In this document: in pieces, positions 7,843 to 11,451 of the stretch | How positions within the stretch are numbered: the stretch's first letter is position 1 | Layout: each line of letters starts with the position of its first letter | DNA from: Dehalococcoidia bacterium | GTDB taxonomy: Bacteria; Chloroflexota; Dehalococcoidia; DSTF01; JACRBR01 | DNA length: 51,062 nucleotides | Assembly (NCBI GenBank): GCA_040902535.1 | Contig: JBBDXD010000026.1 | Span: 11,603-62,664, forward strand | Reading direction: 5' to 3' | Translations under genes and position numbers: made by a program | Notes under the pieces: model-generated | Databases searched by the model: none | What the model was told of the DNA's origin: nothing | What the model saw: the letters and a program-made list of their open reading frames with translations, nothing else

Positions 7843-8463
7843 ATGCCACCACGAGTCGTCATCGTCGACTACGGCGCCGGGAACCTGCGGAGCGTCGCGC
7901 GGGCGGTCGCGCACGCCGGCCACGAGCCGACCGTCACCGACGATCCGGAGCAGGTGGACGCCGCCGACGCGCTGATCGTCCCGGGTGTCGGGGCGGCGGC
8001 CGATACGATGCGGAACCTGCGCGAGCATCGCATGGTCGAGCCGATCCGGGAGTACATCGCTTCGGGACGGCCGTTCTTCGGGGTGTGCATGGGGCAGCAG
8101 GCGCTACTTTCCATAAGCGAAGAGGGCGGCGAGCACGAGTGCCTCGGGATCATCCCCGGGCGTGTGAAGAAGCTCGATGTCGCGGACGGCCGCAAGGTGC
8201 CGCACATGGGCTGGAACAACGTGCGCCAGAAGTCCGCGCACCCGATCTTCGACGGCATCCCCGACGACGCGTACTTTTACTTCGTGCACAGCTACTACCC
8301 GCAGCCAGAGGACCCGGACGTCGTGATCGGCGAGACGGACTACGGCGTCACGTTCGCGTCGGTGCTGGCGCGCGACAACATCGTCGCGACGCAGTTTCAT
8401 CCGGAGAAGTCGGGTGAGATGGGGCTGCGGATGTATGCGAATTTTTTGAGTTTTAAGTTCTAA
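7843..8463 (+). CDS. hisH: imidazole glycerol phosphate synthase, glutaminase subunit
   Basis: HisH releases ammonia from glutamine and passes it to HisF in histidine biosynthesis. The catalytic triad is visible: nucleophile Cys82 in GVCMGQQ, and the His-Glu pair in TQFHPEKSG. IVDYGAGNLRSV at the N-terminus and HMGWN are family hallmarks. The start ATG at 7843 lies 6 nt after TACACT, suggesting a leaderless transcript. The last codons run into an AT-rich TTTTAAGTTCTAAGTTTTCAG repeat, so the FLSFKF ending may have been remodelled by it. hisA lies 2.2 kb downstream, separated by an insertion sequence. hisF is not in the window. Confidence 0.96.
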   Translation: MPPRVVIVDYGAGNLRSVARAVAHAGHEPTVTDDPEQVDAADALIVPGVGAAADTMRNLREHRMVEPIREYIASGRPFFGVCMGQQALLSISEEGGEHECLGIIPGRVKKLDVADGRKVPHMGWNNVRQKSAHPIFDGIPDDAYFYFVHSYYPQPEDPDVVIGETDYGVTFASVLARDNIVATQFHPEKSGEMGLRMYANFLSFKF

Positions 8464-8488: not shown

Positions 8489-8587
8489 TTCTTCGCTTCG
8501 CTCTGAATGACGCGTGGTTCGCTCTGAATGACGCTAGGGCGACGCATTTGGCTGCGCGACTGACGTTGTCGCGCGAGGAGATTTTTC
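8489..8587. repeat. left flank of insertion: dispersed repeat copy
   Basis: This holds TTCTTCGCTTCGCTCTGAATG followed by a stretch of about 60 bp (GCATTTGGCTGCGCGACTG and onward) that is repeated almost exactly at 10468-10512, on the other side of the insertion sequence. The copy ends in GATTTTTC at 8580-8587, the left target duplication. The layout means the insertion landed inside a pre-existing tandem array of this repeat. Confidence 0.8.
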
Positions 8588-8628
8588 GGAAATTATTTAC
8601 TTCACGCAAGTTGGAGTAAGATCGCCCT

Positions 8629-8976
8629 ATGTCCAAATCAGCAATTGGTGTGGTTTCCAGCGCCCTTTTTGGCATCGCCTCACTCTTTCTCGGACTCGGG
8701 GTTGATTTGAGCCCCTACGAGAACACCCCTCTTGCACTAGCACTGGCCTCGTTTGGGGTTTTCCTCCTTTTGGTTTGCTCTGCCCTTCTGATCTACTTAT
8801 GGCTTCATCGTCACGATGATGACAAGGTCGGGATCGAAACGGTCGGCTTCGACCTGGAAGATAGTATCGTCGATGGTGAAGACACTCTGATTGAAGGGAT
8901 GGATACGGCGTTTAAGGGTAAGCGCAACCGATTGCGTCTTAAGGGCACCAAGATCAAGAAGGACTCTTCTTCTTGA
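8629..8976 (+). CDS. IS passenger: small two-helix membrane protein
   Basis: The 115-residue protein has two hydrophobic helices (about residues 5-24 and 35-59, the second LALASFGVFLLLVCSALLIYLWL) followed by HRHDDD, an acidic stretch and a lysine-rich tail ending KKDSSS. It lies just inside the left inverted repeat and reads inward. TAAGAT ends exactly 6 nt before the ATG, so the transcript may be leaderless with its promoter partly in the terminal repeat. Its end overlaps the convergent gene at 8954 by 23 bp. I do not recognise it; a role in holding transposition in check or in helping the host would be a guess. Confidence 0.65.
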   Translation: MSKSAIGVVSSALFGIASLFLGLGVDLSPYENTPLALALASFGVFLLLVCSALLIYLWLHRHDDDKVGIETVGFDLEDSIVDGEDTLIEGMDTAFKGKRNRLRLKGTKIKKDSSS

Positions 8977-9331
8977 CGTGCATTCGGTCGGTAACAAACC
9001 CTGCCCTTCTTCCGCGTACACCAGTTTTCCCTTCTGGCACCTCTACATCAACGTTGGAAAACACGACCGTCTCATCTTCGACGTTGACCAGAACGGGGTT
9101 ATCCGGATGGCCGAAGAAGGTTACGTTCTCCCAAATGAACTGCTTCGCTTGCGGACCACTAATCGAGAGTGCGGCGATGCGGACGCTCTCGCGGCTGGCC
9201 CCAATGACTCGCACCGTTGGTCTGTTCGTTCGCAGCAGTTGTCTCGCCGGTGGCTTCGGGAACAGATCAATATTTAGTTCCCACATACGCATTCGGTCAT
9301 CGATCAGGTTGACCAAGCAATGGCGACACAT
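8954..9331 (-). CDS. IS passenger: hypothetical protein downstream of the transposase
   Basis: This reading frame of about 125 residues has a beta-rich core (for example QFIWENVTFFG, VLVNVEDETVVFSNVDVEV) and a lysine-rich end. It follows the transposase on the same strand. A TTG at 9364 would overlap the transposase stop by 17 bp, whereas ATG at 9331 leaves 16 nt; ATG at 9295 or 9289 is also possible. No clear ribosome-binding site decides between them. An opposite-strand frame over the same DNA looks less protein-like. The segment GPQAKQFIWENVTFFG suggests a small beta-sandwich, but I know no family to name. Confidence 0.5.
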   Translation of the reverse strand: MCRHCLVNLIDDRMRMWELNIDLFPKPPARQLLRTNRPTVRVIGASRESVRIAALSISGPQAKQFIWENVTFFGHPDNPVLVNVEDETVVFSNVDVEVPEGKTGVRGRRAGFVTDRMHVKKKSPS

Positions 9332-9347
9332 TCGCGGGGGTGACGAC

Positions 9348-10235
9348 TTACGCGTGGGCTTCAATCAATTCCGCATAGCGCAGCGTCTCGGCATTGAGCA
9401 GCCGGAGCAACGTGTCCCTGAAAAGGTAGGGGTTATCGCGGTTGTTGAACCGAAAACTCATTTCATCGAGGTATGCGGGAAGGTGCTTGGCCGACAGTTG
9501 GTGATAGGAATCCACAACAGACCGCTTGAGCAGGCTCCAGACGCCCTCAACGGTGTTCGTGTGAACGTCGCCCCGCACCCATTCCTCGGCGCGGTGTTCA
9601 ACCGTCTCATGGCGTGTGTTGTGGTCGCCTACGCCCCAGTAGCCGGGGTGCTCGTCGGTGTGGATCGCGGTTGCGTCTGGCGAGACAACCGACGTGATGA
9701 ACTCGCCGAGTTGTTTCTTGTTGTTGCGCGTCACCGTGCGGATACGCACGTCACCACCGCGAGCGATGGCACCCACAACGATGCTCTTGTTCTTGCGGTA
9801 GCCCTTGCCCTTGCCGCGCACCTTGCCACCGATGAACGCCTCATCGACTTCCACGATGCCCGAGAGCAATTCGGCGCTCTCGTCTTTCATCGCGGCGCGG
9901 ATGCGATGCGAGAGGAACCATGCGGTTTTGTAACTGACACCCAACATGCGCTTGAGCTGGTTGGAGCTGACGCCCTTCTTCGATTCGCAGATGATGTACG
10001 TTGCAAGCATCCATTTCGCGAGCGGAAGGTGCGTGTCACTGAACACGGAACCGACCAGCACAGAGAACTGGTAGCGGCATGAGTCGCAGTCGAACTGGTT
10101 ACGCTTCACGATCTTGGAGATTTTCGTTAACTGACAGCGAGGACACGCGATGCCATCCGGCCAGCGCAGCCCTTCGAGATATGCGCGGCACTTATCCTCA
10201 GATCCATACTTGTCGATCAGTTCAGGAAGGTTCAT
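9348..10235 (-). CDS. IS1595-family (ISXO2-like) transposase
   Basis: The 295-residue transposase has the standard layout. An N-terminal zinc ribbon carries CPRC (residues 32-35) and CDSC about 20 residues later. A helical linker follows (KRMLGVSYKTAWFLSHRI). The ISXO2-like catalytic domain has GIVEVDEAFIGG for the first Asp, HTDEHPGYWGV for the second, and HTNTVEGVWSLLKR for the third acidic residue. All three catalytic carboxylates appear present and no stop or shift is seen, so the enzyme is probably active. The start ATG at 10235 gives MNLPELIDKYG, the usual beginning. It is only 3 bp from the divergent small gene at 10239. Confidence 0.94.
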   Translation of the reverse strand: MNLPELIDKYGSEDKCRAYLEGLRWPDGIACPRCQLTKISKIVKRNQFDCDSCRYQFSVLVGSVFSDTHLPLAKWMLATYIICESKKGVSSNQLKRMLGVSYKTAWFLSHRIRAAMKDESAELLSGIVEVDEAFIGGKVRGKGKGYRKNKSIVVGAIARGGDVRIRTVTRNNKKQLGEFITSVVSPDATAIHTDEHPGYWGVGDHNTRHETVEHRAEEWVRGDVHTNTVEGVWSLLKRSVVDSYHQLSAKHLPAYLDEMSFRFNNRDNPYLFRDTLLRLLNAETLRYAELIEAHA

Positions 10236-10238
10236 GAC

Positions 10239-10400
10239 ATGCCCCGCAAGAAGAAGAAGCCGCCGCAGGAAATGACCAGCGAAGAAGCGATCGAATCGCT
10301 GTTTCCTAAGCGCGTGATCGAGGAAGTAAAACGCGAGCTAGACCAGCAAGAGGAACAAGCGAAGCGGTGTGACACGTCCATCAATCACGATGTTAACTGA
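10239..10400 (+). CDS. 53-residue charged protein divergent from the transposase
   Basis: The frame opens with ATG at 10239 and ends with TGA at 10400, beginning MPRKKKKPPQEMTSEEAIES and continuing with LFPKRVIEEVKRELDQQEEQ. It is basic at the start and then strongly helical and charged, like a small DNA- or protein-binding adaptor. An excellent AGGAAGG site lies 8 nt upstream, inside the first codons of the divergent transposase. It sits wholly within the insertion sequence, ending about 30 bp before the right terminus. It could be an auxiliary transposition or antisense-linked control factor, but nothing proves that. Confidence 0.6.
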   Translation: MPRKKKKPPQEMTSEEAIESLFPKRVIEEVKRELDQQEEQAKRCDTSINHDVN

Positions 10401-10431
10401 GTTCAGCCTTGTGTCAAGTATACAATTCCCC

Positions 10432-10630
10432 GATTCTTCGCTTCGCTCTGAATGACGCTGCGACGGCGCATTTGGCTGCGCGACTGACGTTGTCGCGCGA
10501 GGAGATTCTTCGCTTCGCTCTGAATGACGGGTAATTCGCTCTGAATGACGCATGCGGAGCGGTGCGTTTCACGACGGGATTCTTCGCTTCGCTCAGGACG
10601 GGATTCTTCGCTTCGCTCTGAATGACGTGA
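10432..10630. repeat. right flank of insertion: tandem copies of the dispersed repeat
   Basis: Five copies of TTCGCTTCGCTC or a shortened TTCGCTCTGAATGACG occur here, beginning with the right target duplication GATTCTTC at 10432. The stretch 10468-10512 duplicates the left flank of the insertion. A CTCTGTTGTTTGTTGTCTG microsatellite follows at 10638-10667, just before the hisA promoter. Confidence 0.8.
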
Positions 10631-10692: not shown

Positions 10693-11451
10693 ATGGACAT
10701 CATTCCGGCGATCGATATTCGCGGCGGCAAGTGCGTGCGGCTCGTGCAGGGGGACTACGACCGCGAGACCGTCTTCGGCGTCGATCCTGTCGCGATGGCG
10801 ATGCACTGGGCGGGGCAGGGTGCGAAGCGCCTCCACGTCGTCGACCTGGACGCCGCGCGCGACGGACGGCCGCTGAATGAAGCGGTCGTCAGGCGGATCG
10901 TCAGCGAAGCGGGCGTGCCGGTGCAGGTGGCCGGCGGCGTCCGCACGCACGACGCGATTCACCGCTGGGCGGAGGCCGGCGCCGACCGCATTGTCGTCGG
11001 GACCGCAGCCGTCGAACAACCCGCGATGATCGAGAAGGCGATGGACAAGCACCGGGAGAAGATCGCGATCTCCGTCGACGCGCGGGGCGGCAAGCCCGCT
11101 ATCAAGGGCTGGCTCGAGACGGCGGACATCACCGTCGAAGACTTCATGCGGCAGATGGCGGGCTTCGGCGTGCGGCACTTCATCTTCACCGACATCGACC
11201 GCGACGGCGCCATGGAGCACGTGAACACGGACCTCGTGCAGCCGCTCGTCGACCTGCTGCGCGGTCTCGCGGGCACAGAGCGCGACGAGCCGGCGCCGCT
11301 GATCTTTGGCGGTGGCATCACATCGATCGACGACATCGTCGCGCTCGCGCGGTTCGACATCGAAGGCGTGATCACGGGCCGCGCGCTGTACGACGGGCGC
11401 ATCGACCTGCGGGCGGCGCAGCAGTCGCTGGCGGTGGGGGATGATTGGTGA
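10693..11451 (+). CDS. hisA: phosphoribosylformimino-AICAR phosphate isomerase
   Basis: HisA catalyses the Amadori isomerisation of ProFAR to PRFAR in histidine biosynthesis. The 252-residue TIM barrel has both catalytic aspartates in context: IIPAIDIRGGK with Asp8, and the ISVDARGG and FTDIDRDGAM region holding the second Asp. Two phosphate-binding half-barrel motifs, VAGGVRTHDAI and FGGGITSIDD, are clear. The ATG at 10693 sits 6 nt after TATCCT with only Cs between, pointing to a leaderless start. hisH lies upstream across the insertion sequence, so the two genes need separate transcription now. Confidence 0.96.
   Translation: MDIIPAIDIRGGKCVRLVQGDYDRETVFGVDPVAMAMHWAGQGAKRLHVVDLDAARDGRPLNEAVVRRIVSEAGVPVQVAGGVRTHDAIHRWAEAGADRIVVGTAAVEQPAMIEKAMDKHREKIAISVDARGGKPAIKGWLETADITVEDFMRQMAGFGVRHFIFTDIDRDGAMEHVNTDLVQPLVDLLRGLAGTERDEPAPLIFGGGITSIDDIVALARFDIEGVITGRALYDGRIDLRAAQQSLAVGDDW

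Follow-up and report, generated by a model that had tools for sequence, protein, structure and literature searches.

Between hisH and hisA of a Dehalococcoidia bacterium (contig JBBDXD010000026.1) lies a mobile DNA element of the IS1595 family, within a 51,062-nucleotide stretch of DNA that was analysed as a whole and is called the window here. An initial annotation had placed an 1844-bp element at this locus, and its coordinates, ends and flanking 8 bp were all confirmed (Table 1).

Table 1. Features of the element and its flanks (window positions)
Feature	Position	Strand	Remarks
hisH, one flank of the element	about 7843-8463
Dispersed intergenic repeat unit hit by the insertion, left part	8518..8587	+	93% identical to 10442-10512
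Target duplication, left copy, GATTTTTC	8580..8587	.	compared with repeat copy at 10498-10520
Whole IS1595-subgroup element, 1844 bp	8588..10431	.	supported by its ends and 8-bp duplication; homologous elements are built alike
Inverted repeat, slot-gene side (right end in transposase orientation), GGAAATTATTTACTTCACGCAAG	8588..8610	+	diverged from subgroup pattern
Slot gene, 115-aa protein, two predicted membrane segments	8629..8976	+	starts 41 nt in from the end, where relatives have their slot genes
Doubtful ORF, 136 codons	8954..9364	-	TTG start; ATG alternatives at 9331 and 9289; no homologue
IS1595-family transposase, 295 aa, intact	9348..10235	-	NF033547, PF12762, PF12760
Divergent conserved microprotein, 53 aa	10239..10400	+	start codon 3 nt from transposase start codon; 32/32 elements
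Promoter-like TTGACA (10412-10417), 16 nt, TAACAT (10390-10395), inward to transposase	10390..10417	-	same arrangement in 31/32 elements
Inverted repeat, transposase side (left end), GGGGAATTGTATACTTGACACAAG	10408..10431	-
Target duplication, right copy, GATTCTTC	10432..10439	.	compared with repeat copy at 10498-10520
Target repeat, right continuation and next uninterrupted copy	10440..10520	+
hisA, other flank of the element	10693-11451

The IS1595-family element and its target site

The transposase matches NF033547 (E 6e-60, 202.7 bits against a cut-off of 75) and contains both a DDE_Tnp_IS1595 domain (PF12762, 124.9 bits, cut-off 27) and an N-terminal zinc-ribbon (PF12760, 52.8 bits, cut-off 25.4), the CxxC pairs of which are invariant in the alignment; such a zinc-ribbon is expected in all IS1595 groups but IS1016. 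The original description of an intact ISXO2-like transposase in an IS1595-type element with defined ends and passengers is supported, and the two transposase domains, the terminal inverted repeats and the 8-bp duplication are all common to the element and the family (DDE_Tnp_IS1595 / ISXO2-like). The named ISfinder groups of this family are ISNwi, ISPna2, ISSod11, ISNha5, ISH4, IS1595 and IS1016; passenger-carrying members are known, and a single gene is not a strict requirement. According to PMC8101967, members usually have one transposase gene, whereas the window element and its relatives add a divergent microprotein gene between the left end and the transposase, conserved in 32/32 elements, plus a slot gene. 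Two further IS1595-type transposases of the same genome (G000:C19:82348-83217 and 293437-294327) are 41% identical and belong to another subgroup.

In transposase orientation the two ends are similar, with one gap, and form imperfect inverted repeats; both fit the subgroup pattern, the right one having diverged. The near-identical 8-bp flanks, taken from the outset as a target duplication, match at seven of eight positions. The insertion struck one copy of a dispersed intergenic repeat, such that the left flank follows the repeat through the 8 bp and the right flank resumes at the same 8 bp and runs on. The duplication is regarded as real because an uninterrupted repeat copy (10498-10520) reads straight across GATTCTTC and represents the unfilled form. 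Three genomes of the same family have no element here, and their hisH and hisA adjoin directly, which in terms of gene order is an empty site. Repeats with GATTCTTCGCTTCGCTCTGAATGACG units occupy intergenic DNA near the element (129-160, 8491-8540 and 10432-10630), and nine copies of their core, TTCGCTCTGAATGACG, are present in the window, every one on the + strand. Another element, L078, likewise has GAAGAATC as its target, but outside that repeat, and a target preference for the host repeat is not claimed.

The suggestion in the initial annotation that the insertion was recent is weakened by the single mismatch in the duplication, where many relatives have a perfect 8/8, by the diverged right end, and by the finding of no second close copy of the whole element in the genome. 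The best other transposase copy there (L064, close to one end of contig C3 and accompanied by a left end and a small gene) is 61% identical at the protein level. The mismatched duplication and the decayed right end argue against a very recent insertion, and with its right end decayed the window copy may no longer transpose.

A conserved divergent gene in a subgroup with a common plan

Relatives were sought in three ways. The transposase was searched for in 393 genomes of the class; a profile of the small protein was run against 400 genomes of the phylum and against 396 from a second one, the phylum to which the Acidobacteriota genome with locus L019 belongs; and IMG/VR was searched with the transposase alignment. 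In total, 32 elements allowed both ends to be located, the window copy included (22 curated and 10 from IMG/VR); they come from the window's phylum, Acidobacteriota and IMG/VR contigs and have transposases about 52-67% identical to the window's. The ends were picked by best pattern match and individual ones may be off, with no duplication in two of the ten IMG/VR elements (L095, L102) or in L071. The elements are about 1.6-3.1 kb long, with left ends that resemble GGGGATTATATACTTGACACAGG and 8-bp duplications that are mostly perfect (8/8), and they follow a common plan: a left end with an inward promoter-like motif, a divergent gene of about 50 codons, the transposase, and a slot with a convergent gene.

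All 32 elements have the divergent gene, placed between transposase and left end. Its product has the consensus MPKKKK...EMTxEELAKxxFPKKVxxxLK, with F22 invariant and E16 near-invariant in the alignment. The 53-codon gene of the window was thus rightly called in the initial annotation, being conserved in relatives, but it is a component of the whole transposase subgroup and not the passenger it had been taken for. The idea that all four genes of the element occur together held for the transposase and the small gene, which are always found together, and failed for the other two, which were found in no other element.

Passenger-carrying insertion sequences are known, having been discussed with reference to the 2009 IS1595-family paper (PMC3129680), and the slot genes are variable, both of which would suit an ordinary IS1595 element with unrelated hitch-hikers, as in 'transporter IS', and nothing specific to a subgroup. 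We consider this very improbable, since the small gene is present in 32/32 elements at one position and was undetected at more distant IS1595 loci or in the named controls. The latter, relatives of IS1595, ISCsp2 and ISRhtr1 reached on plasmids, lack the microprotein and are only about 32-33% identical. Among IMG/VR loci, none of which was used in building the small-protein profile, the gene is present in 12 of 12 with a transposase at least 53% identical, and it is absent from the remaining IMG/VR loci and from the distant loci of the genome searches, where all transposases are at most 46% identical. Moreover, in a maximum-likelihood transposase tree a clade of 38 rows (support 100/95) takes in the 36 carriers of the small gene. 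The other two rows, which lack it, group as sisters of the Acidobacteriota member, and one of them (L104) shows a short divergent ORF with a basic product in the corresponding position. In the genome scans of the two phyla, every profile match with E < 1e-5 (11 in the window's phylum and 4 in the second) adjoins a transposase of the same clade, so that at this threshold no small gene was found away from it; two marginal matches do not adjoin a clade transposase.

The small gene is under purifying selection, with a dN/dS of about 0.11-0.38 in close pairs with computable dS. The AlphaFold model of the 53-aa protein has two helices (residues 14-21 and 24-45; mean pLDDT 77), for which no PDB fold match was found, and no Pfam or NCBIfam family fits; family searches likewise matched no DNA-binding family. 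In four or five elements there is no ATG start and a GTG or other start was assumed. The start codons of the small gene and the transposase are often about 12 nt apart (3 nt in the window), and in many elements they are separated by an AGGAG-N-CTCCA-like sequence that could be a ribosome site for either gene.

The left end carries TTGACR (TTGACA or TTGACG), N16-18 and TAnnnT in 31 of the 32 elements, against an expectation of 0.03 in shuffled DNA, and this motif faces the transposase across the small gene, in antisense. Some of the more distant IS1595 elements (L185, L190) likewise have a TTGAC-like sequence immediately ahead of the transposase, and a promoter in the end may therefore be a wider family trait, behind which the small gene may have been inserted. 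An extended -10 motif was seen in the right end of 18/32 elements, but the same pattern occurs in 12/32 left ends, and hence this motif is not claimed.

One could also suppose that the small gene encodes no protein and that what is conserved is an RNA, a regulatory RNA or antisense leader belonging to the transposase message, with the open frame as a side effect. The left-end promoter would give a leader to which the small gene lies exactly antisense, the start regions of the two genes overlap, and no promoter of its own scored above chance (best score 7.22, against 7.21 in shuffled DNA). This explanation is nonetheless quite unlikely, as the amino-acid pattern, including F22 and E16, is conserved while the nucleotides diverge (dS 0.9-1.9 against dN 0.12-0.44 in the computable pairs), and as the profile detects the gene at the protein level in a second phylum. 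A protein-coding gene is thus the preferred reading, and its presence in all related elements examined makes a part in the workings of these elements probable.

Contents of the variable slot

The slot lies between the transposase and the right end, and the start of its longest convergent ORF is usually 30-80 nt in from that end. Under a neutral choice of ORF, 26/32 slot ORFs have an N-terminal hydrophobic segment, compared with 43/191 background ORFs (22.5%; p = 3e-12), a p-value that overstates independence, the background being flanking ORFs and the elements being related by descent; the membrane segments are hydropathy predictions. An all-against-all comparison of 24 slot ORFs gave only three credible related pairs, and no family matches were found for the slot proteins. 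The contents of the slot thus vary between elements and are mostly unrelated membrane proteins. In the window, the two-helix membrane protein of the initial annotation sits exactly where relatives have their slot gene and in that respect fits the plan, but it was found in no other element, and searches for homologues returned none. Such slots provide a ready list of uncharacterised membrane proteins repeatedly carried by mobile DNA.

The gene said to overlap the end of the transposase fared worse. Homologues of the 136-codon ORF were found neither in plasmids nor in viral contigs, and 294 genomes of the class gave only two marginal, unrelated-looking matches. An opposite-strand ORF of 128 codons covers the same DNA and is of equal quality, the two scoring alike in codon log-odds and GC by codon position, and a single-sequence structure model of the last 111 residues of the 136-codon ORF had a mean pLDDT of 39. 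A kinship of this ORF with the C-terminal domain of two other slot proteins was tested and failed. About 370 bp are left beyond the window's slot gene, and L088 also has a same-strand ORF in the corresponding position, for which reason the 136-codon ORF may be a second slot gene; it may also be no gene, and a frameshifted longer slot gene in the window is possible. The three extra genes can consequently no longer be seen as one passenger set, the small gene being a subgroup component, the membrane gene an occupant of a variable slot and the third gene doubtful.

Several slot ORFs of relatives merit mention. In L066 (G054:C8), a second convergent ORF of 91 aa (MTMYLVSYSLTPKRDIDALLNEF...) lies downstream of a 138-aa membrane gene; it has no Pfam match, and we take it to resemble SinR-type small proteins. 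The same-strand ORF that follows the transposase in L088 (G678:C86) encodes 85 aa (MGGYEMADYPDIYADGFSVSAGQFGVALTLNR...), has no Pfam match at E 0.05 and presumably recalls DUF3467. Finally, the slot proteins of L089 and L091, from different genomes, have a common C-terminal domain with FxDCxIxGPA-like repeats, and their remainders do not align.

The small gene and the slot gene share a strand, slot products are usually membrane proteins, and other IS1595-type elements adjoin annotated toxin-antitoxin genes (VapC/PIN, RelE with CopG). It is therefore conceivable that the two products form a pair, such as an antitoxin and a membrane toxin, and that the element is kept by addiction and not by transposition control. 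A specific antitoxin would, however, be expected to vary with its toxin, and the small protein is conserved where the slot proteins are mostly unrelated, which makes such pairing unlikely. The extra genes, moreover, gave no significant match to a toxin or antitoxin family in Pfam, NCBIfam, PHROGs or PADLOC, nor to defence and phage families.

A tentative model of transposition control

Taken together, we give a probability of about 0.72 to the whole anatomical account, in which the window element belongs to a distinct, recognisable IS1595 subgroup, a 'transporter IS' with a conserved accessory microprotein and a variable membrane-protein slot; within this account, an action of the small protein on transposition is a step that we infer. 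As in 'transporter IS' elements, extra genes lie inside the inverted repeats; in contrast to them, one extra gene is constant and not a passenger, and the slot recurrently holds N-terminally membrane-anchored, unrelated proteins. The subgroup is a variant of a known family, and its clade-wide divergent small gene is apparently undescribed, none having been found for IS1595 in the open-access literature, a scope outside which Siguier et al. 2009 (Res Microbiol) falls.

In the mechanism we propose, the transposase would work as it does in other IS1595 elements, recognising the ends of about 23 bp and joining the element to its target with an 8-bp stagger. The left end, with TTGACR and TAnnnT at normal spacing, would double as the transposase promoter, and the first part of the transposase message would then be antisense to the small gene. 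The small protein, with its basic N-terminus and two helices, would most likely influence how its own element transposes, either by regulating the transposase or by partnering it. Judged by position and co-inheritance, we lean somewhat towards its acting on transposition in one way or another, the remaining probability going to the alternatives above and to other functions. Antagonistic expression is suggested by the head-to-head start codons, which share a region of about 12 nt with a ribosome-site-like sequence for both genes. The slot gene would be a passenger, read inward from the right end. That an N-terminal membrane anchor recurs while the rest of the protein is unrelated suggests a function with rapid turnover, serving the host or a conflict with other mobile DNA. 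More speculatively, and with the odds rather against it, this could be a previously undescribed IS1595 subgroup in which the overlapping head-to-head arrangement of the two genes lets a dedicated protein of about 50 aa control the transposase, and in which membrane-anchored conflict proteins are exchanged through an expression slot at the other end.

Transposition control by antisense or small regulators is familiar from the RNA-OUT of IS10 and the InsA of IS1. The comparison is one of working principle, a small product or antisense leader beside the transposase start, and no sequence relationship is claimed. In the present subgroup, a second gene follows one transposase clade through no fewer than two phyla, which makes it a concrete candidate for an accessory or regulator of transposition.

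On plasmids of Roseomonas, Methylobacterium and strain NT-25 (L185, L186 and L188), more distant IS1595-type transposases adjoin PIN/VapC or RelE/CopG genes, which are possibly toxin-antitoxin passengers of other subgroups. The Roseomonas and Methylobacterium neighbours (L185, L186), known from the transposase neighbourhood, share with the window subgroup a transposase followed by other genes and, in L185, the upstream TTGAC-like sequence; they differ from it in having no microprotein, and the genes that follow are a same-strand hypothetical gene plus PIN/VapC.
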